A stretch of 64,000 nucleotides of DNA from Cristatella mucedo (lineage: Eukaryota > Bryozoa > Phylactolaemata > Cristatellidae). Shown here in pieces: positions 7,300 through 64,000 of the stretch. The stretch's first letter is position 1, and every line of letters begins with the position of its first letter. A program made the position numbers and the translations under genes. Below the pieces are notes generated by a model that worked only from the letters and a program-made list of their open reading frames with translations, ran no database searches and was not told the DNA's origin. The DNA is taken from the NCBI GenBank assembly GCA_009760855.2, contig WPIO01000007.1, forward strand, positions 12,083,501 to 12,147,500. The letters are read 5' to 3'.

Positions 7300-10200
7300 C
7301 TCCCTCTCTCTCTCTCTCTCTCTAACTTTCTCTCTCCCTTTCTTTTATCCACTGCCCTCCAACCCTCACTGCCTATGATCAAAGTAATTTGGATCTGGAC
7401 ACGGTTCTACATTTCCTAATGTAATGCAACGTATTTCTGTCTGTAACTCACTAAACTACAAGGAGTAAGTGGGTGTTCCGAAGGAGAGTTTTCTATAGCC
7501 CACCGAAAGCCTTTGTGGCTTTCGGTACGGCACTCTGTAGCCAACAGACTTTATCTCACGAAACACGGAGAAAGTGAGAAGCCCAGCTGAGTTGGGAAGG
7601 CAGCTCAGGGAAGCTGGAAAGAATGTGCCACAGCCGGCAGCAGAAGACTAGGCATCATTACCTAAGAAGTGTGGAAGTGCATCCAACAGTCTAGGACCTA
7701 CTACAGAGCAAAAACTTCTGTTGTCAACGGTCTATAAGTGTATGCATGGAACACCTAATGTATTGTCAATAAAGGCGTTGAGAGCACGAAGAAGCTGAAA
7801 CTAGTGCAGCAGTTCAGCTAAGTAAGGAGCCAAGCCATGGCCGGCCTAGTGGGTCAGCGAATAATAATAATAATAATAATAATGCACTTGATAAAGCGCC
7901 CTCAGAAAACTCAATCTCTTCCTAAGCGCTACACATTTGCTGCAAAGGGAAACACGATTGAATCGTGAGTAATATCATGCTTGATAAACAACATGCATAA
8001 CGTGGTTAGGGGTGACATGCACAGGGTCAGCATGCAAATGTGGTTAGTGGCAGCATGCACAGTGTCAGCACGCATAAGCACAAGAAGAACGAATCACGGG
8101 GACCCACAAAATGCTGTCCTAAAGAGGTGGGTTTTGAAGTTCGTTTTAAATGTGGCCAAGTCAGGGGACGTTCTAACGCAAGTCGGGAGGGAGTTCCTGG
8201 CTTCGGGAGCATACGACTAAATGAACAGTCTCCAAAGGATTTGAGGCATGTACGAGGTAGTGGTAAACTGTTGGATTCCGAAAAGCGGGTGTTACGATGC
8301 TTGGCCAGGTGGGGGAGTAGATCTGAGAGATATGCTGGAGCCAAAGAATGAAGTGACTAAAAGTGAGCGACAAAACCTTGAAGTCGATCCGTTCTTGACT
8401 GGTAGCCAGTGCAGGTCGGCATGAAGTGGTGTGATGTGGCAACTGCGACGTTCACGACAGACAAGCCTACCTGCAGAGTTTTGCACCAGCTGCAATCACC
8501 TGATTACACATACCGATAGACCAGCAAGCAGCAAGTTACAGAAGTCAAGTCGGGATGCCACAAATGCATGGACCAACTTAGACGTGGTATCTTTATCTAA
8601 ACAAGCCCGAATTTTAGCAATACTATGTAGCTGAAAGTAGGCAGATTTGACTGTGGAGCTGATGTGGTCGTCAAACGAGAGGTCACTTTGGAACATGACA
8701 CCTAGATTTCGAGCTGATTCAACAGGAGATATGCTGCAGAGCCAATTTTGAGTGTCAGCCTTTCCAATTTCTGCATCACACTGGGTTTGCCCATAACTAG
8801 TAAGTTACATTTATTATCGTTTAGTTTTAGAAAATTTGCTGCCATCCATGTGCAGATGTCATCAAGAGTTGAGAGAATTCGAGGTGCTCGAAGGGTGGGA
8901 GGAATCAAAGCAAAGGTACAACTGAGTGTCATCAGCTTAAAAGTGAAAGCCTAGATTGTGCTTGGCAATCACATCAGCAAGAGGGAGAGTATAAACCAAG
9001 AAAAGAACCAGACCTAGCACGGACCGGACCAAGCACGGAGAAAAAACTTTATCGTGTATCCATTGATCAACCAGCACACATCCAAGGTCTTCCAGCAAAG
9101 GAGACGCATGGTGAAACCTCTGGGATTTGTAAACTAGCCTTGCAGCCATACTCATTACAAGCTACAGTGGCCAAATGGCCTTTTTTCGGTAGCCCAGCCA
9201 AAATGGAATTACAATAATCTAGCCGATACAAAACTAATAAACTAGTTAAATTGTTTGTATGCCACCGTGGAAGACAGTCCATAATCTTAGATAGGGATTG
9301 GTCGTGATGGCTAGCTGTGGAGGCACTCTTGCAATGAAGCTTTCAAAGTTTAGGCAGCTGTCATTGGTGACACTTGAATTCCGAATCCTTCATATGTTCG
9401 CTGAATTGGTTTGAGATCCATGAACAATTCAGGAGCGATGAATCAAAATCCTCACTCGAAGCAAAGGAGATGCAGCCCCCATTTCCTCACTACTTCAGCG
9501 TTTGCAGCCGTACAAGGACATGATAACTATGAAAGCCATTCAGGCTGAGGCATAAGCACACAGGTAAAAATGAGTTAAAGGCATTAACATGAGAAGGACT
9601 CTTTGAACAAGTACAGAGAAAGTAGTGGTGGCACACGTAGCAGCTTTTTTTGCTGCCACAGCAGGACAATTACACAAAAGAATTCAATGCAGATGAGGAG
9701 AGCAAACTCTTTAATCCATGGAACGATTGCCAATTGGAAAGCTGAGAAGGCAGTAAGTAGCAAGCATCTCAATTTACTGCCATGCCTAATCGTCCAAGCA
9801 ACTATTGAGCGGCCAGAATAGCGGGTAATTGTAAGTAAAATGTAAGGCTCGAGTAACGGTTCATAGCCATATAGACAGGGCCTTCTGGATTTGGGGGTTG
9901 GCAGTTGCTTGATAGCTGGCCTGACCATGCTTCTTTCTGTGGCTATCACGTTCGGCAGGCTGTTTACACTTTGCCAGAATTCAGAGGGGCTGATCGTTTT
10001 CCAAATAATTTGCAGATCCTCCCCAGAATTCAGTCTGAGACGACGAACCTAGGTCTTAGTCTCAGCAGACAGGCATCAGAGGTCGGGCAGGCCAGCAGAC
10101 CTGCTAGCCGATCGAGCTAAGGCTGACTGGAGCAATAGTGAGTCAGAGTAAGCTGACACTGGGTGCCGCCCCTCAAGGCATGAAGCTCACGCAGACAGCA

Positions 10201-11237
10201 GCTCAATTCCAAGCTTACACACTACTTGGATGCCAACGACAGCCCAATTCGCAAAAGGAGGAACCAGTGGCCGAACCCCACGAAGTGGAGACACTCGTAC
10301 CTGGCCTGATCCCACGTCACCACAGTGCACTATGTTCTTGCCCATAAGCGACAGCAGGGTCTTGGCAGCATCGAATTGGGAGCTTGGGCCACCGACCATG
10401 AAAGTCAAATTGGCATCACGGGCAGCATTGACACCTGCAAAAACAAAACGACAGACGTCTTCAAATTTAGAAGATGAGTGTAAACATTGCCAGTACACTC
10501 GCCATACAGGCTCAGCCTCATAATCGAGGCCAGGGAAAGCCTGACGGGCATTCATTTAGAAAATCTGGACTACAAACAGAGTCTCCACCAGATATAGTAT
10601 GCAGCAGACCGTGCAAATGAGAGAGGTGCAGAGAAACGGTGAGCAGTGCAGAAAGTGAGAGAGGAAGAGAGAGACAGAGAGTGAGAGAGACAGCGGGAGG
10701 AGAGACTGAGTGCAAAAGAAGCAGAGAGATCAACAGAAAAGTGCGGGAGGATGTGAGAGCAAGACAGGAAAGAGAGAGCAAGAAAAGCATGTAAAGACTG
10801 AGACAGAGCAACAGCACTTAGAACAAAAGAACCTACAGAAACACACATGTACACACATAAACACACACGAAACACTTGCAAGCACAAGCGGGCTTATTCG
10901 ATGCATCAATGCGGGGCAATGTTTACAGTCACGAAGAAACAAGCCAGTGAAATGTAGAAAAACATGCTCATGCTCCTTGTATAGTCAGAAAGGCCACAAG
11001 ACATCATTATCTCCAATTTTGATCGCTTGGCTGTGCCTCTAACCAGCCTGAAATCATTTGGAGAGAGCGCCTTCAGTTCCTATCCCCCTCAAAGCCTAGA
11101 AATTCAATCCCGACTGACACCTCGACACCCCCTGACTGGACGACATTGAAAAAGAAGCGGGAAATCCGAAACCCGCCTGCTCTGCACTGCTTTAGCTCTG
11201 TCCAAGAAATACATACATACATACATACATACATACA

Positions 11238-29800: not shown

Positions 29801-32800
29801 AAGTTACCGGGCTGACTTTGCGGTTACGGTGAGGCAAGGTGAACTCACAAAATGCAATTTACCAGCAGGTCGGAATTTGCGAGACCAAACTTAGACCTGC
29901 TGGAGACCGGTTAAATGCTGCGGCAGAGCAACGCAGCAAGCTCGAAGCAGTCACTAGCAGCAGACTGTGCCAGTATGAGGCCTGCCTGCATTGCACCTCC
30001 TTGGCTGCCCTGCGGAGGAATGGACGGTTGTATGAACCATGCAGTCCCTCGTTCGAATACAGCGCTAGCTAGCAAAGGCACTTCTGTCGGTCACACCTGA
30101 CATCAACCACAAGGCTGGGGGTGGAGTCATTAGTGCCCACGTGGCACTAGGGTAGACCTTTGCAGTGCTCCACAAATGCCATTGCCAGGCCATCCGGGCT
30201 ACGCAGATGCTACAATACGCACAGCGATGCTCTCGACAAGGTCCAGCAAGCGTCAATGCTCATCTTCAGACCAGACTTGAAAGAGCATTTGGAGTGTGTT
30301 AGAAAATGCACTTCAAACACAGCTTATGCAACTGAGGCAGGAAGGGGCAAAGGACGCTTTCTGGCATGGGTTGGCCAATAGCGAACGCAAAGCAACGAGA
30401 CACAGTGCCACATGTCACCACAAACCCGGGCCGACGGCATGCACTGGGAATGAATACAACGAACTGAGAGCCAAGCAGCACCTACAAAAGCACTGTTTGC
30501 ATGAGCTTTTCTCAGCTAAGACCTGCATTGGTGCATAATTTATTACCGTACTGTATCTAGATCAGTGAGCTCAGCTGCTGTCAAATCATGGCCTAGCCCA
30601 GGAGGTAAGGTACTCGCTCTTCACGACCGAGGTCGTGGGTGCGAATCCTGCAGGGGGCGATCCTCTATTGCCAACTGTAAGCGATGGTGACAGTCATCAA
30701 GGGTCTTCTGCCACTATAGAAAGGAGGCTGTTAAATCCCCTAAAGTTTATTTTATTATTTATTTATTTACCCATCCTTACCCATTGACTTTGTGTTGCTA
30801 TGTGTCAGTGTTGGTTCGGCGAGCTCTACCGGAGGTGAATCGGCTTTGCCTGGTAAGCGCGCACTTACCCAAGGATCCCTGCTGGACCGGTATACACCTG
30901 GGTGACATGAGGGTTTGATGGCAACATAGTCACGAGCTGCGAGACGCGCGAAGCCACTTCGGCAGCCGAGCTGGCTACACTGGCACCTAAAAAAATATGT
31001 TACACATTAGCTTTTAAACGAATGCAGCCCGTGCGGATGGTTAATGCAAAAGTAATAAGTATGCGATTAGCTGATTGGACAGCCTCATTTATACAGCCGC
31101 CAGATGAGCCGTGGCGGCCACGACACCCGCTCCCAGCAAGCAACACGGAATTGCCAGCTGCAGGAGTTGAGCACACCACCTAAAGGTGTAATGGTGCGAG
31201 CACCTTACCCCTAGGCTAAGACCCAGGGTGCACTGCTGAGGGGTGAATCAATGCAGGGGCAAATGATGCAGCAACAAGCAAGCAACACTACGACGCTTAA
31301 GCGCCCACTTCACCCAAGCACTGCTTCAGAATGCTAACAGCTAAGAAGACACCAGCCACCAGTGACAGCACACTAGCAGAGCGCACACTAGCATCAGCAG
31401 CTGCAGATGCAGAGAGACAGACAGACAGACAAACAAATATACCGACACACAAACAAACAGAGAGAGAGAGAGAGAGAGGAACTCGAGTCCAATCGCCCAA
31501 AAATGCGTAGCCCAACGCATCGGTCGAAAGCAGCCCTTACAGCTGCTCATACAAGGTAAACTGCAAAAGGTGAATTCTTGCTTAGGGGTGGCGCTGATGT
31601 CGAGAGTGGCGCTGACTGGTAAGGATTTGAGTCTGTACTCACAGCAGAAAAAAAAGGACGACACATAGTAGTCGAAAAGCAACGTGTGTCAAAAGTTACA
31701 GGCGAAGTACAGGCACATGCAGAAAAAGCTCACGCCTACCGCCCTTACAGGGCGTAGCAACAGACAGGCTGATGAGTTTGAATGATAATGAGTTACAAGG
31801 TACTGTACACTGTGCAGTCGCCAAAGACTCTCAGTATAGCAAAGTGAGAAGGACATCTGGGTGGCAGGACCTCGATAGCAGGAATGAAAGCTTCTGCGCT
31901 AGGCGACTTAGACGACAGCAGCGCAGCAGCCGATTGCTTTGCTTAGCTCGAGTGCGGCAAGATGGCCAGCAGCGTGATAGCGCCTCAAGCCAGCAGCCTC
32001 TGTCTGTCTGCCGCGAGTACGACAGTCATCTATGAGCACCCATCACAGGGCATTCGAAAAAGCCAAACAAAGTTGGTCTGTGTGGCTTTTGATGTCTCCG
32101 ACAGTGCTGGCTCTGAGCTCTAATTTGGCAGGCACACTAGCTCAAGCAGATTAAGTTTTGCATAAACTGAGAGGAATGAAGGCCAAGATTTGTGCTACCT
32201 CTCATTCATGCAGCATGGCAAAGAGGATGATGCTCGCACGGTGGCGGCCAGTGGCACGGCCACTGGCCGGGAGGTGCGCACGAATACGCAAAAGCCTCCG
32301 ACTGGGCCGAGCTGAACTGCCATTCTGGGCGAACGCCACCTACTGTTACGTAGCACTGGCTGGGGCCATGCTTCATGCTGTACCAAATGCAGGCAGCGCA
32401 GTGAGGCTGCGCCCTACCGGCTTGCTCCAGCTCCAGAAGGGCGCTCTTCGAGAGGTCAAACGCAACCACTGGGCACTTGTTCTTCAGCAAGTTGAGAGCC
32501 ATGTGCTTGCCCATGTTACCAAGGCCGATAAAGCCAACCACTTTGTAAGCACCCGGAGCCGAAGCTGCAGCAGGAGATGACATGTGACGTTCTCATGACT
32601 ATGGCAGGACAAGCATGCACGAGCAGCCAGAGTTGACAGAAATCTCTAAACTTAGCCGACAAGCTCGAGTCGTTCTCAGACATCAAAATTTTCAAACTTG
32701 TTTTCCCTGACGAAGCTGCATCCCATCACAAGCTATCAAGCTATCGAGCAAGCACACTTTGCACAACAAAGGAAACCACATGCCAGAGAGGCACAGCCGC

Positions 32801-35800
32801 GCATGCCTTTGTTGGGCGTTACAATACATTAAAAAACTATGGCAGTAACAAAATGAAATCAAATTATGCTGCTAGACCTACTTAAATACCAAGCCTCGTT
32901 TAGGAATAGCACATTTCCAGAACGAGGCAGATCTACTGGCACAAATTCGGTGGCATAGAGAGAACGGCACCAGAGCTACTGGAAAAGATGGCCACTAAGT
33001 TCCGGAATGTTTCTAAAAATGAATAAAAATCTATAAATCTACATCTAGCAAGAGTTTAGAAAAACCATCACCTCGTGGAATCTCCAGCATACGCAGGGTG
33101 GCCGAAGCACCGACCACAACAATAATCCTCAAATTCAAAAGAGAGATAGAGCTCAGTATCACCAGCATCAAAGTGACACCAAATCATAATCACAATAATA
33201 AGTCTTTTTTAAAGCGCAAAAAGATAACTTAATCTCTATTCAGCCACTTGAACACTTGCAGCAAGAGAAGCAATAACCAATTTTTAATGCAAATCAAGGT
33301 ATCTGCTAAGGCAAGCATGCAAAGCATACAATTCTTATTCTAAGACATGCATGCAAAATTACACAGAAAACTTCAGGCTGCTGGCAAGCAAGACCCCGGT
33401 TTGTAACACTCACTTAATTGCACACAGGCTCAGTGGAAAAAAGGCAGGTCACCCAGGATGCTATACAAAAGCATGTCGCGGTTGCCATTAGTCACTATGC
33501 CTAGTTTCATTGCTCACAGCCACATAAAAATCCATACCACTAGGACAGGCTGCGTGAAGCAGGTAAGATTTTGGATTCTTTTTTAAATTTCGTTGTCAGG
33601 GAATGACATAATGTCAGTCGGCAGTGAGTTCCAATCTACGGGAGCCTAGGAACTGATGGCGCGGTCTCGGGGATTTCGGCTAGCTAGAGGCATACGTTAT
33701 CACACAAGAGCCAGACGACCAGATGTATCGAGTGGAGGCCTGAAGGGAAATCAATTCAGAAAGGTAGGTCAGAGCAAGAGAATTAACGGACCAATGCGTG
33801 AGTTGTCAGGATCTAAAAGTCGATATTCCAGAATGATCCTGAAATGCCACGATGGTCCGGGATGTAATATGACAATTCTTATAGGCATGGCCAGCTTCAG
33901 CAGACATGTACATGATTGCCAATAGTCTTGGAGTCCTGGCTTAACGACTTAGCTTCGAAGGCAAATCTGCCTAGGCTCAATTAAATGGAATATAATCTAA
34001 TGTGTCTCCATCGGTAACTCCACAAAGACTATGTGGGTGTTACACAGGAGAGTTTATGTATAGCGCACTCACAGAATAAGCGGCTTTCGGTACGCTTTCG
34101 GTAGCCAACAGACTTCATCACAAGCACCAAAGAGAAAGTGGGAAGCATAACAGAGTTAGGGTAGCAGTTGAGGTAGTGAGTGGCATGGAAGTAGCAGCTC
34201 GGGACCACTGAAAAGGAGGAGCCATAGTCGGCAGCAGGTTGTAGCTGCATAAGAATCGTGGAAGCGAGCTCCACAGTTTAGGGCCTGCAGAGCTAAAGCT
34301 TCTGTTGCTAACGGTCTTTAAGTAGAGGAATGGAACAGCTAAATTATTGTCCGTACAGGACCTGAGGGCACGAGGAGGCTGAAACTGATGCAGCAGTTCA
34401 GCTAGTTATGGAGGAGCCAAGCCGTGGCATGCATTGTGGGTCAGCGTAAGAACTTTGCTCTGTAGCCTGTGATCAACCGGCAGCCATCCAAGCTCTTTTA
34501 GCTAAGGAGACACATAGTCAAACATTGAGCTAGTTAAATTTTTTTCCAGCCACCGTGGTAGATAGCTCCTTACAAGACCAAAAGAACTTAAGTAACTTCC
34601 CCCCAGTCTCTCTTCTGATGTTCTTATGAAAGAAACTGGAACGAGTTGTGGCAGAACTGCTGAACTCATATATCGAAACCTCACACCGTGCTAGCAAGTT
34701 CCAGACTGGCTTTAGAGCTAATCACTCCACAGAGTCAGCATTGCTTCGGGTATACAACGACCTACTTAGGAATGCAGACATGGGTAGAGTGTCTCTTCTT
34801 GTTTTGCTCGATCTTTCGGCAGCTTTTGATCCTATTGATCACAAAGTCCTTCTAGAGCGCCTCTCATCTTGCCTGGGCATCACTGGCACTGCTCTGCAGT
34901 GGTTCAGGTCCTATCTCAGTGGGAGACTCCAGAGTATCGATGTGAATGGACAAAGATCATCCGAGGTACCTATGAAATATGGGGTACCTCATAGATCCGT
35001 GCTTGGTCCGGTACTTTTCGCAGTCTGTACTCCCTCTTGTCGATGTGATTGCCAAGCACAATCTAGGCTTTCATTTCTCTGCAGATGACACTCAGTTGTA
35101 CCTTTGCTAAGGTCCCTCCCAGCCTTCGAGCACCTCAAATTCTCTTAACTCCCTTGCCCCATGTTTTGTTGACATCCACACATGGATGGCAGCAAATTTT
35201 CTTGAATTATATGATGATAAAACCAACTTAATAGTTATGGGCGAACCGACTATGAATCAGAAATTGGAAAGGCTAATGCTCAAAATCGGTTCTGCCAGCA
35301 TATCTCCTGTTGAATCTGCACAAAATCTAGGTATAATGTTCCAAAGTGACCTCTTGTTAGACGACCACATCGGCCCCACAATTAAGTCTGCCTACTTTCA
35401 GCTACAGAAAATTGCTAAAATTCGGGCTTGTTTAGATATGGATACCATATCTAAGTTGGTCCATGCATTTGTGCCACCCTGTCTTGACTTCTGTAACTCA
35501 TTGCTTGCTGGTCTGCCGGCCTGTGCAATCAGGTGCTTACAGCTGGTGCAAAACTCTGCAGCTAGGCTTGTCTGTCGTGAACATCGCAGTTGTCACATCA
35601 CACCACTTCTCGCCGATCTGCACTGGCTACCAGTCAAGCAACGACTCGACTTCAAGGTTTTGTTGCACACTTTTAGGTCCCTTCATTCTTTGGCTCCAGC
35701 CTACCTATCGGAGCTACTGCTCCACCAGGCTAAGCATCATACCACCCGCTTTTCGGAATCTAACTGTTTACCTATACCTCGTACAAACTTCAAATCCTTT

Positions 35801-47834: not shown

Positions 47835-48496
47835 GATTCAGGAACAGCAACGTCAGGATCGTGTCGAAGCAATCTGGAGAACTATGTGCGCAAGAGCTCA
47901 ATGAAATGATGCACGCTATGGTTGGCTATAATGACGATATAAAAGATGTTAGCAATGATGTTCTTAACAACGCAATGGAACTGATGTGAAAGCTCTTGGA
48001 AACATCTCCCGGGAACTTCATTACCACCCGCTGGTCTGAAAAGATTATGCAGGAGGTCCGGAATCGCGGCGCCAGTGCTCGCCTGGATAGTATCGCTGAT
48101 AGTGAGGACGAAGATCCTGACAATATTGGCGCGCTGTTGACGGCGGCATCCGATGTGGCACAGACTCAAGGCAGAAAAAAAAGAGCATCGGCGCAGAAGG
48201 AGGCTGCTCCGGGCGTGCAGATACGCTCTGTGGGGCACCCGAAGAACGTACCAGCGGTTGTCTCAAATCAGCCATCAATCTTGAGTTATTTCTTGAAAAA
48301 ACTAGACTCAATTTTCGCGATCGAGCCCTGGATCCGGTCAGCCGCTTCGCACTTTCGTAATCGTTTTCGAAATCCCTGTCTTTCTGCTGACGAACAGAAC
48401 TCGACGAGCTCGACATTTTTTAGCCTATTTGCATGCAATTTGGACCAACATTCAGGTAGTTATCGCAGTCCGCGCGAACCCGGGTTACCATGGTAA
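47835..48496 (+). pseudogene. Decayed ORF inside the transposon
   Basis: The plus frame reads VSKQSGELCAQELNEMMHAM and YNDDIKDVSNDVLNNAMELM, then a stop (TGA 47987), then KLLETSPGNFITTRWSEKIM, DSIADSEDEDPDNIG, and a basic GRKKRASAQK stretch. Amphipathic helices followed by an acidic patch and a basic cluster look protein-like, but I do not recognise a transposase catalytic core. Open frames also exist on the minus strand, so coding on this strand is inferred. Confidence 0.4.
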
Positions 48497-48504
48497 CCCG
48501 GGTT
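48477..48504. repeat. Perfect 28-bp palindrome
   Basis: AACCCGGGTTACCA followed by its exact reverse complement, centred between 48490 and 48491. Its right half overlaps the right terminal repeat of the transposon. Confidence 0.95.
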
Positions 48505-49847
48505 ACCGCCATCGGGCTCATAAGTACGAAGTCTATTGGAGCACCAGTGCAGGTATTCATCGCGTCGACGGTGGCGTCGCGCGATCGCCGTCAGTCCGCG
48601 AAGGACCGCCAAAGGACATGACCTCGCTGTGGGTGAGAGAGCGGCACGCCCGGCGGCGGCCGGTCAAGTGGCGGCGAACTCTGGCCGCGAAGGCGGAGGC
48701 AGCTGCCCGGCGGCGGCGGCGGCGGGCGCTAGCGGGCGCTGGCGGATATCGCCGCGACCTCGGGCGGTGGTCTCTGAGCGCGTCCGCTCGGCGCGAGCGC
48801 TCAGCCGCACTCGACTCCGACCCGCTCGAGCGCACTAAGGGTAAATATATGCATGTATATAATTTGTGCCGTCTCATAATTTTAATCGATTTTCTTATTG
48901 TTCTCCGCCCATCCGACTAATGCGTCTTGTTTAATTTCTCTTTATGTCCGGCACGCGCGAAATCAATATTTCCACCCGCCGTCACCCGCACCGCACGCGC
49001 GGGCGCGCCTCGGAGGAAGCGGCGCTCGCTCCCGCCCGTCGTAGCCTAGGAATGCTGGGAGCGCTCGCCGGCGGTCGCACGCTCCGCCGCCGCCGCCACC
49101 GCCGCCGCATTGTTGATCGGTAAAGTGAGACGGACAGGACAGGCCGCGCGCGCGAGTGCGAGCGGGCGCACGCGCGATACCGCGCGCCGCCAGTCCGTAG
49201 CAGCGTGCCTCGCCGCCCGACAGCGGTCGGCGGTGCGAACCCATCCATGTTCGGAGCGTGACGCGCCCCGGCGTCGGCCAGCCGTCATCGCCGCCTCTGC
49301 CGTCGCTCGGCCGATGGCGAGACGCGGTCTCCTAGGACGCCGCATCTTGGCCGTCGCGGCGACGCTGCTGCTGCTGCCGCTTCGTCACGACTCCGCGGCG
49401 GACGTTTTGGATCTTAGCCGAACTTCGACGGCAATCGAGACGGACAGGTACGGCGTTCGCTGTCCTTGCGACCATGCAGAGATGCGGCGGCGGCGGCGGC
49501 GGCGGCGGCGACCTAAGGTCCTGGCGGGCCGGTAGCTCACGCGTTCCGTGGTGAGACGGACACTGCCGCAGCCAGTAGTCACCTGTACGGAACCCTGGCC
49601 TAGGCGGCAATGCAAAGCCGCGCGTACGGGATCGAGCGCTTGGAGAAACAGCGGAGTGAGAGAGCGAAAGAGAGCGAGAGAGCCAGAGCAAGAGAGAAAA
49701 AGAGAGAGATGTCTCGGCCCGCGGCGAACAGCCGTGGCGGCAGCCGCAGCGCCGAGGCCGCCGGCTAGACGCCACCCGTACGATGGCCTCGCGAAGTCCG
49801 TCCCCAGGCTCCAGCCTCACGCGGCGCCCGTCGAGGCGCCGGCCTCC

Positions 49848-49880
49848 CGGAGCGGAGCGCGCGCGGCGCGCTCCGCTCCG
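49848..49880. repeat. Perfect 14-bp hairpin in the CpG island
   Basis: Arms CGGAGCGGAGCGCG and CGCGCTCCGCTCCG flank a 5-nt loop, about 100 nt upstream of the favoured PGGHG start codon; in the mRNA it would lie in the 5' leader. Confidence 0.85.
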
Positions 49881-49979
49881 AGCGCCTGCTGCCGCGTCGA
49901 CGGCGTGGCTAGCGCTGCTTCACGCCGCGCGGCTCCCTCGCTTCGGGGTCTCTGGGCAGCGGAGGCTCGGGCCCGGGAG

Positions 49980-50187
49980 ATGGCAAAGTGGGTCACCCAT
50001 CGTTTGCATTCGCCGCCGCAGCCGCTGACAGCTGGCCGCATCCGCGGCTCGTCGCGCAGGTTGCCGCTAATGAACGCTGACAGGACGGTCGACTATCGCC
50101 GCATGGCCTCCGTGGGGAACGGGCACTTGGCCACGGTGGTGTACAGCGATTCCGTCTTCCTGAACGGCCTATACAGCGGGCGGCTAG
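49980..50187 (+). CDS. PGGHG: PGGHG/ATHL1-like first coding exon
   Basis: The exon reads MAKWVTHRLHS... then MNADRTVDYRRMASVGNGHL and ATVVYSDSVFLNGLYSGRL, ending at donor CTAG|GTAGGT (phase 1). From DYRR to LYSG it aligns without gaps over 30 residues with the N-terminus of protein-glucosylgalactosylhydroxylysine glucosidase (human DPRLLATVTNAYLG...VSGVYNG), about half identical. That family (GH65, acid-trehalase-like) removes the glucose of the Glc-Gal-hydroxylysine unit of collagen. I chose the ATG at 49980 because of its context (G at -3, G at +4); the ATG at 50070 has a poor context but cannot be excluded. The reading frame is open far upstream, but that part is CpG-island DNA with no homology. 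No further exon was seen in the remaining 13.8 kb. Confidence 0.72.
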
Positions 50188-50305
50188 GTAGGTTGGGCGA
50201 CCGCGCGGCGCCGCGCAACCGCGAGCCATCAGCTGTCAGCAGCGTCGGCGCTATCGGCAGCGTCAGAGCCAGCAGCAGCGTCTGAGGCGGCTCTGCAGCG
50301 GAGTA

Positions 50306-50420
50306 ATGGCGGCGGCGGCGGCGGGCGGCGGCGGCGGCGGCGGCGGCGGGCGGCGGCGGCGGCGGCGGCGGGAGGCAGCGGCGGCGGGAGGCAGCGGCGG
50401 CGGCGGCGGGAGGCTGCTGG
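50306..50420. repeat. (CGG)n / (GGC)n tract just after the exon 1 donor
   Basis: About 110 nt of near-continuous GGC/CGG triplets, starting ~120 nt into the putative first intron. Such tracts can form quadruplexes and vary in length. Confidence 0.9.
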
Positions 50421-50734
50421 CGACGCACGCGGCAGCGGCGGCGCCCGCCGTAGCCTTAAAAAGTAGTGGGAGGACGCGCTCGTTAGCTTTCCGATTCTCG
50501 TTGCCAATTCCTAATCTCCGAGGTAAATGAGGGTCTATTAAATTCCGTTCCGTCCTCCGCTGCCTTATCTCCGCCTAAGACGCGGCGACGGCCGATCGGT
50601 GTTCTGACTGGTCTGCCGCTCGAAGCCACTGGCTTACACCGGTCAGTGCGCAGCGGCGGCGGCATTGGCCGGCCGGCGCCGACCTCGATGTGAGTGCGTA
50701 CGATCAGGATGGGATACTCTACGGAGGTCAGAGG

Positions 50735-51290
50735 TTGAAGAGCTCGAGGCCCACAATCGGCTCTGCTAGCACATTTCCCGTAGCGTCTTCGCGAAATCTA
50801 TGTGTCCTATTCCAAAGGGATCTTTCACTAGATGACCACATTTGGTTTGAAGTCAAGTCGGCCTACTTTCTGCTACGTAAGATTGCTAAATTCGGACCTG
50901 CTTAGATAGGGATGCCACATACAAATTGTTCCTTGTATTTGCAACATCCCGTCTCGACATCTGTAATTCGCTGTTTCCTGGTCTACCTGCCTGTGCTATG
51001 AGGCGCTTGCACTTGGTGCGAAACTCTGCAGCCAGGCTCTTCTGTAGCGAGCGTAGCGTTTCGGATGCAGGCTGCTAACCCGCCTACCCCCGCCGTTGAT
51101 TGGCCAGGAGGGGCTGTGCTGTTTCTGGTAAGTAGGGGCGGTGCGAGCGACCTGAGATCGGACAGTTGCCATGCTGAGATGGGCTAAGTGCGAGTGTGCC
51201 GGAGTGACGCTGCGAGCTTTAGGGGAAACCATACGCTTGCTATAGCAAATGTTAAGGGCGTAGGAAGTGAGTAAGTTCTGTGAGGGCGCT
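50735..51290 (+). mobile_element. Old L2-like LINE fragment in the putative PGGHG intron 1
   Basis: [40 protein letters not shown] and SAYFLLRKIAKF, then CRLDIC and RRLHLVRNSAARLF-like. The last part (51060-51290) is only weakly LINE-like, with a tail echo GTTCTGTGAGGGCGCTAC. Confidence 0.72.
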
Positions 51291-51454
51291 ACACAACTGC
51301 ATGATTATTACTTCGACCGTCGAACGCATCCCTGAAATGGCGCCGAACGCATCGCGACTCGAGAGAGGCAGGCACGGCAATGGCGACTTGCAATGGCCAT
51401 CGAAGAGCGAAACGCCTTCGCTCACCAGTCTCGCCAACTCGGCAGTCTCTGGCT

Positions 51455-51635
51455 CTTGGTCCGCGGGTAAGGCGCTCACACGTCGATGCCCAGGACGCGG
51501 GTTCGATTACAACAGCGGGCCACTCTGCATTGCCAAATGCACGGTGCCCATTGCACACACAGCGGGAGTGACATCCGCCAAGTGTGGCCTTTTGCTGCGA
51601 TATATTTGATAACGACGCTGCTGGATCAGCTGACC
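51455..51635 (+). repeat. SINE 2-like element
   Basis: CGCGGGTAAGGCGCTCACAC, B-box-like GCGGGTTCGATTACAACAG, a body and GATAACGACGCTGCTGGATC, which matches the SINE 2 end (ACGCTGCTAAATCTGC). Confidence 0.65.
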
Positions 51636-51742
51636 TATTCTTTCTTACTCAACCCTCTGCGAGCTTTCGATCCAGGCTTCCGCTCAGGCTCAGAGTCGCT
51701 GCATTAGGTAGCAGCAAAGCTGCTGCAGCCATCGCCACGGGA

Positions 51743-51745
<3 letters not shown>

Positions 51746-51802
<57 letters not shown>

Positions 51803-51915
51803 TTCTCTCTCCCTGTCACTCACTCACTCTCTCTCGTTCTCTCTCTCGCTCTTTCTCACTCTCTCTCTCTCTCTCACTGGCACGCTCTCTCTTTCTCACT
51901 CGTGCGCTGTTTATC

Positions 51916-51998
<83 letters not shown>

Positions 51999-52022
51999 GA
52001 CGCTCTCTCTCTCTCTTTCTCG
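51746..52022. repeat. (CT)n microsatellite cluster
   Basis: Several CTCTCT tracts with short interruptions over ~275 nt. Confidence 0.95.
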
Positions 52023-55217: not shown

Positions 55218-55760
55218 AACTCTGCTGCTAGGCTTGTCTATCATGAGAGTCGCAGTTGCCACATTACACCACTTATCGCCATCATCCACTGGCCTTTCAA
55301 TCAAGCAGAATATCCACTTCAAGGTTTTTTCATTCACTTTTAGGTCCTTTTATTTTCTTGATCCGGCCTATCTGTCTGAACTATTTCCAAATCAGGCAAG
55401 GTATCTTGCCAATCACTCTCATGATCCAAGTCTCTTAGCTGTGCCTCGAACCAACCTCAAATCCTTTGGATACCGTACCTTTACATCGTATGCTCTCAAA
55501 GACGGAAACTCAACCAAACTGACGTCACGACATCTAACTTCACGCATTTTTAAAAATAAGCTAAAATGCACATATTCTTCAAAGCATTTTCTAGATTCTT
55601 GTGAAATGTCGCCGGTGTGCTTATTCATACTGGCGCTGTGCAAGCTATCAGAATCCAGTTGACATGATTTACGTACAGCAATGTATAGTGCCCAGAAAGA
55701 TATTTATTTTTTTAGTTTTAGCAATGCAAATTTCTTCTCCTTACAACTATTCTTGTTATA
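55218..55760 (+). mobile_element. Old L2-like LINE 3' end
   Basis: [18 protein letters not shown]-like, HFKVFSFTFRSFYFLDPAYL and [20 protein letters not shown], then a decayed tail (GTGCCCAGAAAGATATTTA). Confidence 0.75.
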
Positions 55761-56313
55761 ATTATTGTTAGTATCAGTTAAATTAAAAAAATTCCAGGGA
55801 CGCGTTCTCAAAAATAGACTGAAGCTTACTTTTTGTACAGCCAGTAGATTATGGGCCTATAGGGTCGTACCAGCTTACGATCCATCCTAAATAGGCATGA
55901 TGTAGAAAAGTAATGATTGCGTAGGATGCAGCTTCATTTTTACACTGCATCCGCCGAATTGAAGAGCATTGCGGACGCACGTTATCGAGAAAATCACTTG
56001 CAAAGTTGAGCCGCAATCGCTAGCCTGCACCAGCCGCGAGCCATTTACGCTGACTCAAATTACATTTTCCAGGCAACGCGCTCGCGCATTGATTGAAATT
56101 TTGCTGATTCACCCCAGACATAATTATTTGGGCCTCGCTCAGTCGATTTGTATTCGATTGCGGCGGATCGCTGTAATACTCGCGGAAGCCTTTTATCTCG
56201 AGAAGCACGACCGCAAATAGCGCCAAGAACTGAGCCTGGGAACGCAGATTGAGCGACTGGCTGAACTCCTCGGCGGCGGGGGCGGCGGCGGCGGCGGCTT
56301 TCGATGCGGGAAG
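55761..56313. other. Left flank of the long inverted repeat
   Basis: AT-rich at first, then a GGC-rich run (56270-56300) just outside the left arm. No gene recognised. Confidence 0.4.
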
Positions 56314-57622
56314 GGACTCGACGAATTACCGCAATCCACTCTAATTAGTCCAACATCGACCAGACATTAGCGTTGCCGAGCTCACATTTTGCGCTGATAT
56401 TGTAGTGCACGTTCGATTTTATCTGTCCACTAAATTTCATGTCGCTGCTCGAACGGGCATTTATGCAAATGCGCTTTGACGCCGGACGCCTGTACCGCAA
56501 TCCATTCTAGTTCCCGTCAAATCCACCACGAATCAACTTCGCACAGCTCCAACAAGTTTGTAATATCAAACTATGCTACACTTTTGATGTTCCCAGAAAA
56601 GTTTGCGCGATTCCGCTCACGCGTTCTCACAAAGTCCACTGAAACAACATTGCAGTGGCCCGGCCAATACTGCATTCTACCGACCGCAATCCACTGCATT
56701 CCACCGTGCAAAGAAAAAAATTCTGGTCGAAAAGCTTTTTTGATTGCATATGACAGCACACTCTGCGACAATTGCACTTAAAAAATTTCACTTGCATTGG
56801 CACGGCCTATCTCGTGCAATCTGTTGCAATCGACTGCAGTAGCCCGGGCCAATACCACGAGCCATTTCAATCCACCGAATCCACGCATAAAATCGAACTA
56901 GATTGGGCCGAGCTCCAGTTTTTATTGTAAATTAAAGTTCATCTTGCTGTGTGCACAACCACGTAAAATAAAAAAATGTGCATCCTCACACTGTGGAAAT
57001 GGGCGGCAATCGCCTGAAATGACCTGGGAAAATACCGCAATCCACTCTATTCCACTGCAAATCATCCTCAAATCGCCATCGCCAAGCTCTAATTGACATT
57101 GCATATAGGACTAGACTCAGTTCAAAGTGCACCCACAGTTTCGCTTCATTGTGCACACGCGTTCTCATGCAAAGAATTGCAATCGGCTGCAACGGCCCGA
57201 TACCATACCGCAATCCACCCGAATCAGCCAAAATCCGCTGCAATCCACCGCACAGCGAACAGGACACATACACTAGAAGCTCTAATTATGATTGAACGGC
57301 GCTCTACTCTTCGGCTATTGTGTACTCGCATAACTTCACTGTAATTGCCTCGATCATTCTGCAGCAGTGCAATGCAATTGACTTTAATGGCCCGGGCCAA
57401 TACGGCAATCTACAGCAATCTGATGCAAAATGCCCTGAAATCGGTTTTGCAACGCTCCAATTTTGAATGCATGTTGCAAAGCACACTGGTTAAATAAAGT
57501 CAACCACATAATTTTAAGCAATTTAGCTCGTACAATCTCAGGCAACCCATGACAATCTACGGCAACGGCTCAGCTCGAAGCTGCAATCAACTACAATCCG
57601 TGGCAAGTCGACCCCAAATTGG
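56314..57622 (+). repeat. Left arm: tandem array of ~180-bp divergent monomers
   Basis: The shared core TGCAATCGACTGCANTGG is followed by CCCGGGCCAATACCGCAATC, with cores starting near 56658, 56842, 57022, 57194 and 57389 (spacing 184, 180, 172, 195). Monomers begin after AGCTCYAA with TTTTGATTGCAT-like sequence. Monomers differ greatly from one another, yet each matches its partner in the other arm closely. ORFs here are by-products of the array. Confidence 0.8.
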
Positions 57623-58036
57623 GAGGCTGAGGGCTGTGGAGTAAGTTTTCATGGGTGTGAACTTTCAGTTTCTAGGTCATTACAAAGCCATTTGGGACTT
57701 GTCAGTCGGACAAAGAAGCATTTTACATTAGGCATATTACGTTAGGTATAAAATTGTACTTTAAAAAAAAGTGCGATGTAATGCCTGATGTATACTTAAG
57801 CTTTGCACAGCCTAGGTGCATTTGATTTGCGACGGATTGTAGACGATTGCTGTGTTGGCATGGGTCATTGCCGTTTATTGCATTGCAGTGACCGAGAGCC
57901 AGCATTGGTCCCTGCCATTGCTGTCAATTGCCGTGCAGTGTCGAAAATTAACGTGCAAAATAGCTTGAACGTCCTACTGTTTCACGTTTAGCACAAAGAA
58001 ATGTGAAGTGCGATGACAATTAGCACTTCGTGCAAG
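57623..58036. repeat. Spacer of the long inverted repeat
   Basis: This stretch is partly AT-rich unique sequence (57623-57800) and partly further GCAATC/GATTGC monomer fragments in the inverted orientation (about 57810-57960). No transposase-like frame is present. Confidence 0.6.
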
Positions 58037-58609
58037 CCAATTTGGGGTCGACTTGCCACGGATTGTAGTTGATTGCTGCTTCTAGCCGAGCCGTTGCCGT
58101 AGATTGCCATGGATTGCCCGAGATCATACGAGCGAAATTGCTTAAAATTATGTAGTTGACTTTATTTAACCAGTGTGCTTTGCAACATGCATTCAAAATT
58201 GGAGCGTTGCAAAACCGATTTCAGGGTATTTTGCATCAGATTGCTGTAGATTGCCGTATTGGCCCGGGCCATTAAAGTCAATTGCAGTGCACTGCTGCAG
58301 AATGATTAAGGCAATTACAGTGAAGTTATGCGAGTACACAATAGCCGAGGAGTAGAGCGCCGTTCGATCATTATTAGAGCTTCTAGTGTATGTGTTCTGT
58401 TCGATGTGCGGTGGATTGCAGCGGATTTTGGCTGATTCGGGTGAATTTTGGTATGGTACCGGGCCGTTGCAGTCGATTGCAATTCTTTGCATGAGAACGC
58501 GTGAGCACAATGGAGCAAAATTTTGTGGGTGCACTTTGAACTAGGTCTAGTCCTATATGCAATGTCAATTAGAGCTTGGCGATGGCGATTTGAGGATGAT
58601 TTGCAGTGG
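58037..58609 (-). repeat. Right arm, first piece
   Basis: Inverted copy of 57050-57622, starting CCAATTTGGGGTCGACTTGC and ending GATGATTTGCAGTGGAA, where the LINE block begins. Confidence 0.85.
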
Positions 58610-60240
58610 AAGGGTCCGTACTCTGTCCCTTGCTGTTCTCTATGTTCCATTTTTTGTCGCTCACTTTTAGGTCACTTCATTATTTGGCTCCAGCCTATCT
58701 CTCAGATTTACTCCCTCACAAGGCGAATCATCGTACCACCCGCTTTTCATAAACCAACAGTTTACATATACCTCATACAAACCTTAAATCCTTTGGAAAC
58801 CGTGCATTTAGTTCGTATGCTCCCAAAGCCTAGAACTTCCTCCCGACCTGCGTCAGAGCATCCCCTGACTTGACCACATTTAAAAAGAACTTAAAGACAC
58901 ACCTATTTAGGACAGCATTTAGTGGGTCCCTGCGATTCGTCCTTCATGTGCTTATGCGTGCTGACACTGTCCATGCTGCCACTAACCACACTTGCATGCT
59001 GACTCTGTGCATGTCACCCCTAACCATGTTATTCATGTTATTCATCAAGCATTACATTACTCACCATTCAATCACGTTTCCCTTTACGGGCGTTTTATAA
59101 AGTGCATTATTATTATTATAATTATTATTTATACTCAACATCTGGGAAAAGTGATTAAAGCCCACGGAGTAGGATGTCACTTTTATGCTGACGATACTCA
59201 GCTGTATTTGGCATTCAAACCGTCGGAATCTGCTGCAGCAACTGAGAAACTGAATGCTTGCCTTGCCGACATTTGATCCTGGATGTCGGTAAACTTCTTG
59301 AAAGTAAATGAAGATAACACCGAACTGCTGCTCAAAGGACACGCAAAGCGTGTGACTGGATTAGAAGGCTTTGCTCTTCTTAATAGGTGATGCTGTTGTG
59401 CGACCATCACCACGTGCTCGAAATGTAGGTGTCGTTTTCAACATCTGCCTAAACTTTAAAAGCAAACTTTATTCAGAAGACTGCTTCTACAGCTAGTCAT
59501 TACGTCCGATCCCGATCCAAGATTAGGAGTTGTCTTCCACAGTGGCTTACAAAAAATTTAACTAGCTCCTTAGCTCTGTCTCGGCTTGATTATTGTAATT
59601 CCCTTTTGGCTGGGCTACCATAGAAACAAACTAGGCCATTGCAGCTGGCTATGAATATGGCTGCAATGCTAGTCTTCAACTCCCAGAGGTTTGAGCACGT
59701 GTCTCCTTTACTAAAGGAGCTAGGATGGCAGCCGGTTGATCAACGGATACAGAGAAAGTTCTTACGCTGACCCACAAGGTCCACCACTGCTTGGCTCCTT
59801 CGTACCTAGCTGAGCTGCTGCACCCGTTTCAGTCTCTTTGAGCCCTCGGGTCCTGTATGGACAATTAATTAGCTGTTCCATTCCTCTGCTTAAAGACCGC
59901 TGGCGACAGAACCTGTAGCTCTGCAGGTCCTAGACTGTGGAACTCGCTTCCACAATTCTTACGCAACGACAACTACTCTCCTGCGGCCGAGTATGGCTCA
60001 TTTTTTTCAGCCGTCCTGAGCTGCTACTTCCATGCTACTGACTACCTCAACTGCTCTCCTGACTCTGCTATGCTTCCCACTTTCTCTTTGTTGCGTGAGA
60101 CGAAGTCTGTTGGCCACCGAATGCGTACCGAAAGACTTTGAGTGGGCTTTTACAAAACTCTCCTGCGTAATACCCACATAGTTTTTGTGGCTTTTTTGTG
60201 GAGTTACAGATCGAGATATATTGCATTATATCAAGTTAAT
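58610..60240 (+). mobile_element. L2-like LINE B, interrupted by LINE A
   Basis: The first 42 bases encode GSVLCPLLFSMFH (RT motif [11 protein letters not shown]). The frame resumes after a nested LINE A with TQHLGKVIKAHGVGCHFYADD, containing the RT active-site YADD near 59183. It then continues through degraded RT and the C-terminal part (WLPVDQRIQ-like, [12 protein letters not shown]-like) to the 3' end GTGGAGTTACAGATCGAGAT. It is 5' truncated. It inserted into the right arm of the long inverted repeat. Confidence 0.8.
58653..59125 (+). mobile_element. LINE A copy nested in LINE B
   Basis: A 5'-truncated 3' end of LINE A: the SLLGHFIIWLQPISQIYS frame, then the noncoding 3' part and an ATT-type tail at 59105-59129. 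It splits the LINE B RT domain between LLFSMFH and TQHLGKV, so it is younger than that B copy. Confidence 0.82.
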
Positions 60241-60389
60241 GTAAAATGTAATGTATCTCAGCCTGTAACTAAGCAAAGCCGCAAAGACTATATGAGTGTT
60301 ACGTAGGAGAGTTTTGGATAGCCAAGTAAAAGCCTATGCAGCTTTTGGTACGCATTCGGTGGCCAACAGACTTCATCTCACACAACAAA
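60241..60389 (-). mobile_element. LINE B 3' end, inverted
   Basis: Begins ATGTATCTCAGCCTGTAACT and reads to CTTCATCTCACACAACAAAG: the reverse complement of the B terminus. It abuts the plus-strand B copy tail to tail. Confidence 0.8.
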
Positions 60390-60913
60390 GGCCTTGGCCG
60401 AGCGACGAGCGAGCGAGCCCGGCGGCTAATTCCAAAGCAGAGCGAGCGGAAGCGAAAGCCAGGGTCGTGGGTTCAAGCACTCTTGTAGGCAATGCTTCCG
60501 CTATACAAACGACGCTGCTAAATCTGCTAAACTTTAGTAATTTCGATTTAATTGTTAAGTGATTATCTACCGTGGGTGACTTGCGCCAGAGACTTCCATC
60601 AGACTGGCGGCTTGCGAAATATACGCGTGCGGTCCGCAATGCAGACGTCCTTGTCCGCACGTTTGGTGGTTCTACCATCGCTTATATCCACCCACGGGGC
60701 ACGTTTCCGACACATAATCCGACAATTACGAGTGCTTGTATTATACATTCATATACGTATATATATCTATGCATATACACTGACACACACACACACACAT
60801 ATACAGACACATACACATACACACATATATATGCGTATATATATATATATTCACGTATATGCATATGCACGTGTATAAATGAATGAATAAATAAATGAAC
60901 ATATATATATGTG

Positions 60914-60981
<68 letters not shown>

Positions 60982-61800
60982 TGTGTGTGTGTGTATACAC
61001 CCTCCTATAGCAGCTGGACCTCAAAAGTCAAGCATTTAATACGGCTTCCAGCCGCCGTAACAGTAGTACTACTCGCGAGGTCACTTGGTAGCGGAAGCGT
61101 CTCGCCGAGCGGACGCGCACGGCGTGTTACCACGCGCGTCTGAGCGCGAGCGCCCGCCGATCGAGCGGCACTTGGCGCGAATCGTCGTCGTTCCACTCTG
61201 AGGCCGCTTTCGGCGGCGAAGAGCGGCCATTGACCGACATGGCGGCGCTCCGCGCGTTAGTCACCCTGCCGTAAGCGAGCGGCGCTACAAGAGTTCGCAT
61301 TAGTGTGGCTGCGATGGCCATCAGCGGTCGGCCGGCCGAAGCGGCCGTCTAGCGCGTTGCGTCAATCGCCAGATACGAATATCTGCCAGATGCCGCGCCA
61401 GCGTAAACAAGACGGCGATGAGGGCTCAGCAGAGCGAAAGCAGATGGCAGAAAAGTGGTGTCACGCTAAGGCGATCTGACCCCGTGCGCTCCGCCTGCGT
61501 CGGCTTAAAAGCGCCGTGATGGAATACCTGCACTTACGATGGCCGCACACCTGGCCGCCGCGCAGGTACATAGCTGCGCTGCATTAGCTCGGCGTTTCGC
61601 CGCGCCGCTCGGAGGAGGTACCGCCGAGCGTGTTTGTTTGTACGGCGTTGGTCGCTCTGCCCTCCGCCCGCCGCTCTGTCGAACCGCCAAGACGCCGCGT
61701 CGGCGCTGTAGCGCGCGCGTGCGAGCGCTGAGTCGGCAGACCCATGCACACATTACTCGTGTATGCAGTTCCCACAAATCAGTTGGCTTTGTGTATATAG
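60390..61800. other. CpG-rich and microsatellite DNA between two LINE B ends
   Basis: Holds a SINE 2 fragment (60462-60545), AT/CA/GTGC microsatellites (60750-60997) and a CpG-dense block (61060-61740). No gene is recognised; the open frames in the CpG-dense part lack homology. Confidence 0.5.
60765..60997. repeat. Compound microsatellite (AT)n-(CA)n-(GTGC)n
   Basis: ATAT and CACA tracts at 60765-60860 and GT then GTGC repeats at 60905-60997. Confidence 0.9.
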
Positions 61801-62282
61801 ATCAACGGATACAGAGAAAGTTCTTACGCTGACCCACAAGGTCCACCACTGCTTGGTTCCTTCGTACCTAGCTGAGCTGCTGCACCCGTTTCAGTCTCTT
61901 TGAGCCATCGGGTTCTGTATGGACAATTAATTAGCTGTTCCATTCCTCTGCTTAAAGACCGCTGGCGACAGAAGCTGTAGCTCTGCAGGTCCTAGACTGT
62001 GGAACTCGCTTCCACAATTCTTACGCAACGACAACTACTCTCCTGCTGCCGAGTATGGCTCATCCTTTTCAGCGGTCCTGAGCTGCTACTTCCATGCTAC
62101 TGACTACCTCAACTGCTCTTCTGACTCTGCTATGCCTCCCACTTTCTCTTTGTTGCGTGAGACGAAGTCTGTTGGCTGCCGAAAGCCGCTTAGGCTGTGA
62201 GTGCGCTATACAAAAAAACTCTCCTGTGTAACACCCATATAGTCTTCATGGCTTTGTGGAGTTGCAGACGGAAATACATTAC
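61801..62282 (+). mobile_element. LINE B 3' end, near-identical to 59739-60235
   Basis: Starts ATCAACGGATACAGAGAAAG and ends GTTGCAGACGGAAATACATT, directly against the resumed right arm. It shares with the copy 2.06 kb upstream several changes not seen in other B copies (for example TCTCTTTGAGCC), so the two are duplicates of one insertion. Confidence 0.82.
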
Positions 62283-63040
62283 GATAGAGTGGATTGTGGT
62301 ATTTTCGCAGGTCATTTCAGGCGATTGCCGCCCATTGCCAGAGTATGAGAATGTATAATTTTTTTTATTTTACGTGGTTATGCACACAGCAAGGTGAACT
62401 TTAATATACAATAAAAACTGGAGCTCGGCGAAATCTTTTTCGATTTTTATGCGTGGATTTGGTGGATTGAATTGGATTGCGGTATTGGCCCGGGCTACTG
62501 CAGTCGATTGCAGCACATTGCACGAGAAAGGCCGTGCCAATGCAAGTGAAATTTTTTAAGTGCAATTGTCGTAGAGTGTGTGTCATATGCAATCAAAAAA
62601 GAAGCTTTTCGAACAGGATTTCTTTCATTGCACGGTGGAATGCATTGGATTGCGGTGGAATGCAGTATTGGCCTGGGCCATTGCATTGCTATTTCAGTGG
62701 AATTCGTGAGAACGCATGAGCGGAATCGCGCGAACTTTTCTGGGTACATTACACGTGTAGCGTAGTTTCATATCTCAAACTTTTTGGAGCTGTGCGAAGC
62801 TGATTTGTCGTGGATTTGACGGGAACTAGAATGGATTTCGGTGGATTGCGGTACAGGTATCCGGCGTCAAAGCTCATTTGCATAAGTGTGCATGCGCGCA
62901 GCGACATGCAATTTGATGGACAGATAAAATCGAACGTGTAATACGATATCAGTGCAAAAAGTGAGCTCGGCAACGCTAATGTCTGGTCGATGCTAGCCTA
63001 GAGTGGATTGCGAAGGATAGCGGTGGATTGCGGTTATTCG
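62283..63040 (-). repeat. Right arm, second piece
   Basis: Continues exactly where 58609 stops: it begins TAGAGTGGATTGTGGTATTT and is the inverted copy of 56314-57050. It carries about 20 extra bases near its outer end relative to the left arm (a duplicated ATCC..GCAATCCAC piece). Confidence 0.85.
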
Positions 63041-63369
63041 TCGAACCCGCGGAGAAGCTTCACCATTCGGACGTCGCGCGTAGCAAGCGTAACGGACAGA
63101 CAGCGCAGCTACGGTTTCAAGCTAGCACCGCTGCGTACGATCGCCGTTCCACTGCCAACGTTCGGCTCTCGCTTCCGACTCAGACGAGCTGCTGCATTGC
63201 TCTGTTGGGACGTAGCGAAAGCGGCGACCGGCGACCGGTGGAGCGGCCTGCCTCTGCGCACGCTCCCGCGCGGCACGCTCTCTGCCTGCTCAAAGCCACC
63301 GCGCTCGCGAACTCGCTCGCCTGAGCCGATTTCATCTTCCCGCTCCTGCTCGGCGGACTCGTGTCGACG

Positions 63370-63423
63370 TCGGAGGCGTGGCTGCACGAGCGGCGGCAGC
63401 CGCTCGTGCAGCCACGCCTCCGA
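63370..63423. repeat. Perfect 24-bp hairpin with 6-nt loop
   Basis: The arms 63370-63393 and 63400-63423 are exact reverse complements (starting TCGGAGGCGTGGCTGCACG), with loop CGGCAG. Strongly GC-rich. Confidence 0.92.
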
Positions 63424-63576
63424 ACCGCCGCCCGCCCGCCGCCGAACTCGCGGTCGTTCGGCGCCCGCTCGGCGCCGAGAGACCGCGAATCGTGCGCCTC
63501 GCCAGTCGTGGCCGGCTGAGCGCTCGCGCGCGCTATACTAACGAGTCCACTTCCGCCTAGTGAAGGCTAGGTGGGG

Positions 63577-63624
63577 GAGCGATGCGCCCACCCGGGAGCG
63601 TGCGAGCGGGCGGGCGCATCGCTC
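63577..63624. repeat. 18-bp inverted repeat with 12-nt loop
   Basis: Arms GAGCGATGCGCCCACCCG (63577-63594) and CGGGCGGGCGCATCGCTC (63607-63624) pair with a single mismatch (G-T in RNA). It lies in the same CpG-dense block as the 24-bp hairpin. Confidence 0.85.
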
Positions 63625-64000
63625 GCGCGCGGCGACGTCTCGCTCTCGCCCGCGGCGTATACCAGGGCTCGGCTCGCTCGCCATTTCCGGATGGCATCGA
63701 GCCTTCGCGCGCGCTCTCGCTCCAGGCCACGATGCCTGGCTCGCGGAGGAGCTTCGGGATAGAAGGGCCGCGGCGCAGAAGCCATCAGACTTGTTTGTCT
63801 CCGCTTCGCTTCCGCTCGGCGGAGCGCCGAGGCACTCGGGCGGATGGGAAGGAGGAGGCGCTCGATAGCCCGAGGGCTGCGGCGAGCTGCGTCCCGATGC
63901 AGCGTGCGTCGCGCGCCGCCGCATTGCCGGCAACTGCGGCCTTGGGCCGCCCACCAAAGAATTAGAACAAAAGCTGCACCGTCTCGGCAAACCGTCAGGG

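Follow-up and report, generated by a model that had tools for sequence, protein, structure and literature searches.

What produced a pair of long inverted arms, each an array of related repeats, at a single locus in the bryozoan Cristatella mucedo? The arms lie between positions 56314 and 63048 of the window, by which we mean the whole 64,000-nucleotide stretch of DNA analysed here (assembly GCA_009760855.2, contig WPIO01000007.1, positions 12,083,501 to 12,147,500 of the forward strand). A preliminary description, made from the letters of the window alone, had proposed a foldback transposon, with a satellite as the other possibility. Having followed the arms and their ends through the genome, we find a foldback family of known kind, with hundreds of terminus matches; the window element itself is very probably a non-autonomous foldback DNA transposon that inserted here and has since decayed.

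Inverted arms, shared termini and target-site duplications

Alignment of the two arms of the window element gives 94.4% identity over 575 columns for the inner part (57050–57622 against 58611–58037) and 87.0% over 738 columns for the outer part (56330–57050 against 63012–62284; E-value 0 for both), and a gapped alignment of the rejoined arms carries the match to TCGACGAAT at both ends, with the termini at 56314 and 63048. The long inverted ends and small unique centre of a foldback element are thus present, as arms of 1.3 kb around 414 bp, and the ends are internally tandem-repeated: the left arm holds eight copies of a core motif (at 56315, 56481, 56656, 56841, 57021, 57194, 57389 and 57567; spacings of 166–195 bp), the right arm with its inner continuation holds nine, and a majority sequence derived from 12 copies holds 16. 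Monomers that are partners across the window arms are 87–94% identical and non-partners mostly ~65–83%, over short stretches. The preliminary description, which had recognized inverted arms of ~1.3 kb, at least six related monomers in each and a closer match between partners than between neighbours within an arm, is borne out on all three points. Its left end and its 414-bp spacer (57623–58036) also hold, but the right terminus lies 8 bp beyond the limit it gave, and ~57904–58034 within that spacer proves to be a further array, which we assign to the right arm because 18 of 20 other copies carry it beside the inner arm end.

Used as a query against the genome (572 Mb in 688 contigs), the left arm yielded 1,746 candidates, of which 40 were scored, giving 75 match rows that include the window’s own two arms; among these, long arm matches elsewhere in the genome are 80–86% identical. 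We examined 20 matching copies with ~4 kb on either side. The left terminus, GGGTTCGACGAATTACCGCAATCC, is recognizable at the start of every one of them, cleanly in most and poorly in L017 and L026, and the array continues for ~2.5–2.8 kb, whole or in pieces, in 16 (L009, L012, L024 and L025 are shorter). With up to three mismatches allowed, GGGTTCGACGAATTACCGCAATCC has 847 matches in the genome (422 forward and 425 reverse), and the reversed control pattern has none in either direction. A second, inverted terminus is present in five of the 20 copies (L016, L018, L019, L020 and L028); with the window copy, L030 and five facing pairs drawn from 100 listed of the 847 termini, this makes 12 elements bearing the same terminus at both ends, while L029 showed one end only. 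Inner junctions vary among copies: several enter one of two shared continuations, that of L016 jumps into an inverted arm, and L028 carries its own inner part a second time, in inverted orientation.

The flanks of the 12 elements, which were chosen for having both ends visible and not at random, agree most closely at a length of exactly 9 bp (mean match 0.565, compared with 0.21–0.33 at 6, 7, 8, 10, 11 and 12 bp). At this length 61 of 108 positions match, where permutation gives 29 on average and 52 at most; 0 of 20,000 permutations reach 61. Element by element, the matches out of nine number 8 (L028), 7 (L016, L030 and L051), 6 (L053), 5 (the window copy and L019), 4 (L020 and L059), 3 (L018 and L057) and 2 (L055). 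The flanks of the window copy and of L019 match at 8 of 9 positions once a 1-bp gap is allowed (GCGG-GAAG against GCGGAGAAG in the window, where the ungapped match is 5/9), and the duplication is convincing in seven elements, five without a gap and two with one. L055 sits within a larger palindrome. Repeated, dispersed copies, the same outer ends and target duplications, the signs of mobility that the preliminary description had proposed to look for with the arm as query, were all found; its foldback transposon is supported, and single-copy occurrence is refuted.

Might the arms instead derive from a ~175-bp tandem satellite, a dispersed piece of which was inverted and duplicated without any transposon? 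The nucleosome-like period and the monomer arrays would fit, and foldback arms can seed satellites, as described for Tetris (PMC4079207). The outer ends, however, are fixed and accompanied by 9-bp target duplications, and the monomers are position-specific, their order being kept between copies. A search for the core with at most one mismatch gave 182 genome matches; among the 100 listed there is no run above two, and in each of five pairs of cores, at distances of 173–183 bp, a AGCCCGGG variant is combined with a GGCCCAGG variant. Because at most two adjacent cores cluster among these matches, homogeneous arrays in the assembled part of the genome are disfavoured, although collapsed or unassembled arrays could escape such a search. 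The satellite side of the preliminary description is not supported by the matches listed, and we regard this origin as very improbable.

An assembly artefact, in which a folded read made the inverted arm, was the other refutation that the preliminary description had named. One family copy could be of that nature: L061, taken with L062 and L063 (C332:10095600–10098230), lies in a near-perfect palindrome whose two sides, each of 914 bp counting 20 bp of flank, differ at one position and enclose a 49-bp loop, and the palindrome extends into the flanks at 99.5% to ~390 bp past the element on each side, as far as examined. Either an inverted duplication with the element at its centre took place recently, or the assembly is folded here. 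The window arms, by contrast, differ by 6–13% and by indels, the sequences beyond them (55500–56313 and 63049–64000) have no inverted match to each other, and the near-9-bp duplication brackets the whole element. Given this divergence between the arms, and given that inverted ends recur in other copies, an artefact in the window is scarcely credible.

Table 1. Parts of the window element, with positions in the window
Feature	Position	Strand	Remarks
Left target-site duplication, GCGGGAAG	56306..56313	.	One base shorter than the right copy; pairs with GCGGAGAAG with one 1-bp gap
Left terminus, GGACTCGACGAATTACCGCAATCCAC	56314..56339	+	Family motif GGGTTCGACGAATTACCGCAATCC
Left arm	56314..57622	+	Eight-core array; about one monomer (~174 bp) of the majority sequence is missing
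Central spacer	57623..57903	.	57823–57897 resembles an array monomer, in right-arm orientation
Right-arm array, inner continuation	57904..58036	-	No left-arm partner; 58419–57904 matches element positions 1119–1629 (86.6%)
Right arm, inner part	58037..58611	-	Inverted copy of 57050–57622 (94.4%)
Right-arm interruption, 3,672 bp	58612..62283	.	Pieces of long interspersed nuclear elements (LINEs), simple-repeat tract, GC-rich stretch
Right arm, outer part	62284..63048	-	Inverted copy of 56314–57050 (87%); terminus ...GCGGTTATTCGTCGAACCC
Right target-site duplication, GCGGAGAAG	63049..63057	.	Pairs with the left copy

Within the insert that interrupts the right arm, the stretches 58652–59085 and 59127–60222 match several other places in the window. 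A LINE end piece is present twice (59738–60222 and 61800–62280, 91% identical), its two occurrences being separated by an inverted piece, simple repeats and a GC-rich stretch; we take the LINE pieces of the insert to be L2-like. Inspection of the insert ends by eye revealed no target duplication. Neither an Rfam scan of the window at gathering scores nor a tRNA scan with the bacterial code gave a match. Elsewhere in the window, a piece of a 3-hydroxyisobutyrate dehydrogenase lies on the minus strand at 32206–32592, as does, at 10187–10555, another piece bearing an NAD-binding domain of the same kind; upstream of both is a GC-rich island (48001–52000, 59–64% GC) that is perhaps a promoter. A reverse transcriptase domain occurs at 34633–35088, and many LINE-like repeats are dispersed through the window; with the dehydrogenase pieces, these features suggest an animal genome.

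Monomer order and the ancestry of the arms

The arms are built of ~175-bp monomers with a conserved ~40-bp core that resembles the element’s own terminus. In the 2,822-bp majority sequence the 16 diverged cores are spaced by 154–195 bp, with one interval of 324; 100 shuffles of that sequence contain 0.31 cores on average and 2 at most. Core order and spacing are similar across the five copies compared (L013, L014, L018, L019 and L026); in each of the last three at least one core is absent, displaced or under the threshold. Fourteen of the 16 monomers, the first and last being unusable, were aligned on the core without gaps, and ten-column means of their agreement are 0.77–0.85 between −20 and +19, 0.58–0.69 in the shoulders (−40 to −21 and +20 to +39) and 0.41–0.61 farther out; the core search pattern spans 0 to 23, where agreement is partly selected for, and −20 to −1 lies outside it. 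The first core falls on the terminus itself, with 7 mismatches of 24, so that the element appears to end in a further copy of the repeat unit. The idea that the core forms a hairpin was rejected, the 48-nt core folding no better than shuffles (z 0.76).

How are the two arms of one element related to each other? A tree of the outer 720 bp pairs the window arms as sisters (99/96), and a tree of an inner 190-bp piece does the same (99/98, with the bootstrap not settled); the two arms of L018 are likewise sisters in the outer tree (99/97), which brings sister arms within an element to two of the three elements tested. Relationships among copies are near-star, with 2 of 21 inner branches well supported. 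L010 and L009 are placed closest to the window arms by the outer tree (86/85 and 81/52), but the inner tree does not place them so. Compared with the majority sequence, roughly one monomer (~174 bp) is missing from the two window arms at a shared position. In L009 and L010 roughly one is missing too, at a point ~45 bp further along the alignment; L012 and L025, on the same test, retain it. From these alignments, a single monomer loss common to the window arms, L009 and L010 appears likely. Arm-specific gene conversion, considered for the gradient in arm identity from 87% to 94%, was rejected: in comparison with 20 other copies, too, the window left arm is more conserved in its inner piece (84.2–90.5%) than in its outer part (79.6–83.5%).

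Candidate transposases and a possible history

Our best guess for the enzyme that moved the family is a Mutator-like transposase, because the target duplication is 9 bp long, the genome has 59 matches to the domain of Mutator-like elements (MULEs), and inverted repeats, many of short tandem units, occur at 17 of the 20 MULE loci examined (L031–L050). The ~9-bp duplication across the 12 elements fits that of a MULE. At the MULE loci two or more kinds of tandem unit occur, AGGACAAAATGTCCC-like and GGACAATTCGGAGC-like units among them, and the left and right ends of several loci differ, in the manner of Tm1. These 20 loci were rejected as the autonomous partner, their inverted ends differing from those of the foldback family; also rejected was a candidate on C48, apparently large enough, with inverted cores 5.3 kb apart, of which 1,201 bp from the middle (L066) proved LINE-like and not a transposase. 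Tests of 20 of the 59 MULE loci and of the C48 core pair found no autonomous copy.

A foldback element could also have been moved by some other transposase, such as that of Merlin, P/Galileo or hAT. In its favour, none of the 20 MULE loci examined is linked to the ends of the foldback family, and the foldback form has arisen with different transposases, Galileo being a P element (PMC3688188, PMC3169594); yet the duplication is sharply 9 bp, a length commonly made by MULEs (PMC3169594). The IS1595-type (Merlin) transposase domain PF12762 has three genome matches, all on contig C3, which is possibly a bacterial contaminant. Target duplications measure 8 bp for P, 7 bp for Galileo, 8 bp for hAT and 8–9 bp for Merlin. 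P/Galileo is disfavoured because the duplication here is 9 bp and not 7–8 bp; no search for P or hAT transposases was made. We consider a transposase from outside the MULEs unlikely.

Several findings weigh against a foldback transposon mobilized in this way by a MULE. No arm or terminus of the family occurs at 20 of the 59 MULE loci within 1.5 kb on either side, and, judged by eye, none of the 59 MULEs comes closer than 50 kb to any of the 100 termini listed of 847; in view of these two results, membership of the family in the MULE superfamily is no more than probable. A second terminus is absent from 15 of the 20 copies within the stretch examined, with one weak candidate in L012, so most copies may be broken or one-armed. 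Five of the 12 elements (L018, L020, L055, L057 and L059) lack a target duplication, and that of the window copy requires its 1-bp gap. The two arms of L020 do not group as sisters in the outer tree.

Taking the element as a MULE-mobilized foldback transposon, we infer a history in which the monomers would have arisen by an old tandem duplication of the terminal site, followed by divergence. The branching of the arms and their branch lengths suggest that the second arm would have been made from the first by inverted duplication, through a template switch or repair by fold-back, close to insertion and either during the transposition burst or shortly ahead of it. The enzyme acting at GGGTTCGACGAAT would be a Mutator-like transposase that another element provides, and the cores may be extra binding sites for it, by analogy with Galileo. 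A further proposal, possible but doubtful, is that the ~16 diverged copies of the terminal site, held in fixed order at a nucleosome-like ~175 bp, load the transposase as a phased array, and that each copy of the element renews its second arm as an inverted copy of its first, whence the sister arms in two of three elements.

Relation to known foldback families

Tetris, from Drosophila virilis, is likewise a foldback element, apparently non-autonomous, with long inverted ends containing tandem repeats; part of its repeat is common to the outermost domain, rearranged forms occur, and the source of its transposase was not found (PMC4079207). Its repeats are ~220 bp long, ~94% alike and variable in number, and have expanded into satellite-like arrays (PMC4079207), whereas the ~175-bp monomers described here are strongly diverged and keep their order between copies, with 16 in the majority sequence. 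Tm1, a Mutator/Foldback element of root-knot nematodes (Meloidogyne), shares the 9-bp duplications and the composite inverted ends with tandem motifs, and is mostly non-autonomous (PMC3169594). By contrast with its motif C, mostly 14 bp, its different end motifs A1 and A2, and its known copy coding for a Phantom-type MULE transposase (PMC3169594), the family here has a ~175-bp unit and the same motif at both ends, and no copy with a transposase was found in the tests above. Because this plan is already that of Tetris and Tm1, the ‘new type’ that the preliminary description had allowed for is not needed, while its alternative, a non-autonomous element, stands.

Long, internally repetitive inverted ends are also found in Galileo, of the P superfamily, whose repeats hold extra transposase binding sites (PMC3688188); Galileo has a P-type transposase, whereas the duplication here is 9 bp. 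Plant MULEs with multiple tandem terminal inverted repeats (TIRs) share the internal extra copies of the terminus, the long TIRs and the amplification, but have one or two extra TIRs, live in plant hosts and in some cases carry gene fragments (PMC3310237). Template switching has been proposed for the repetitive ends of FB4 (PMC8277862). In the literature, searched by subject and not by sequence, we found no animal family of the same make-up beyond those named.

Foldback elements can cause inversions. As a discovery the present family is modest, its kind being already known; through its hundreds of termini, its long array of monomers in a set order and its separately datable arm pairs, it is useful for asking how foldback arms originate and how they are kept alike.

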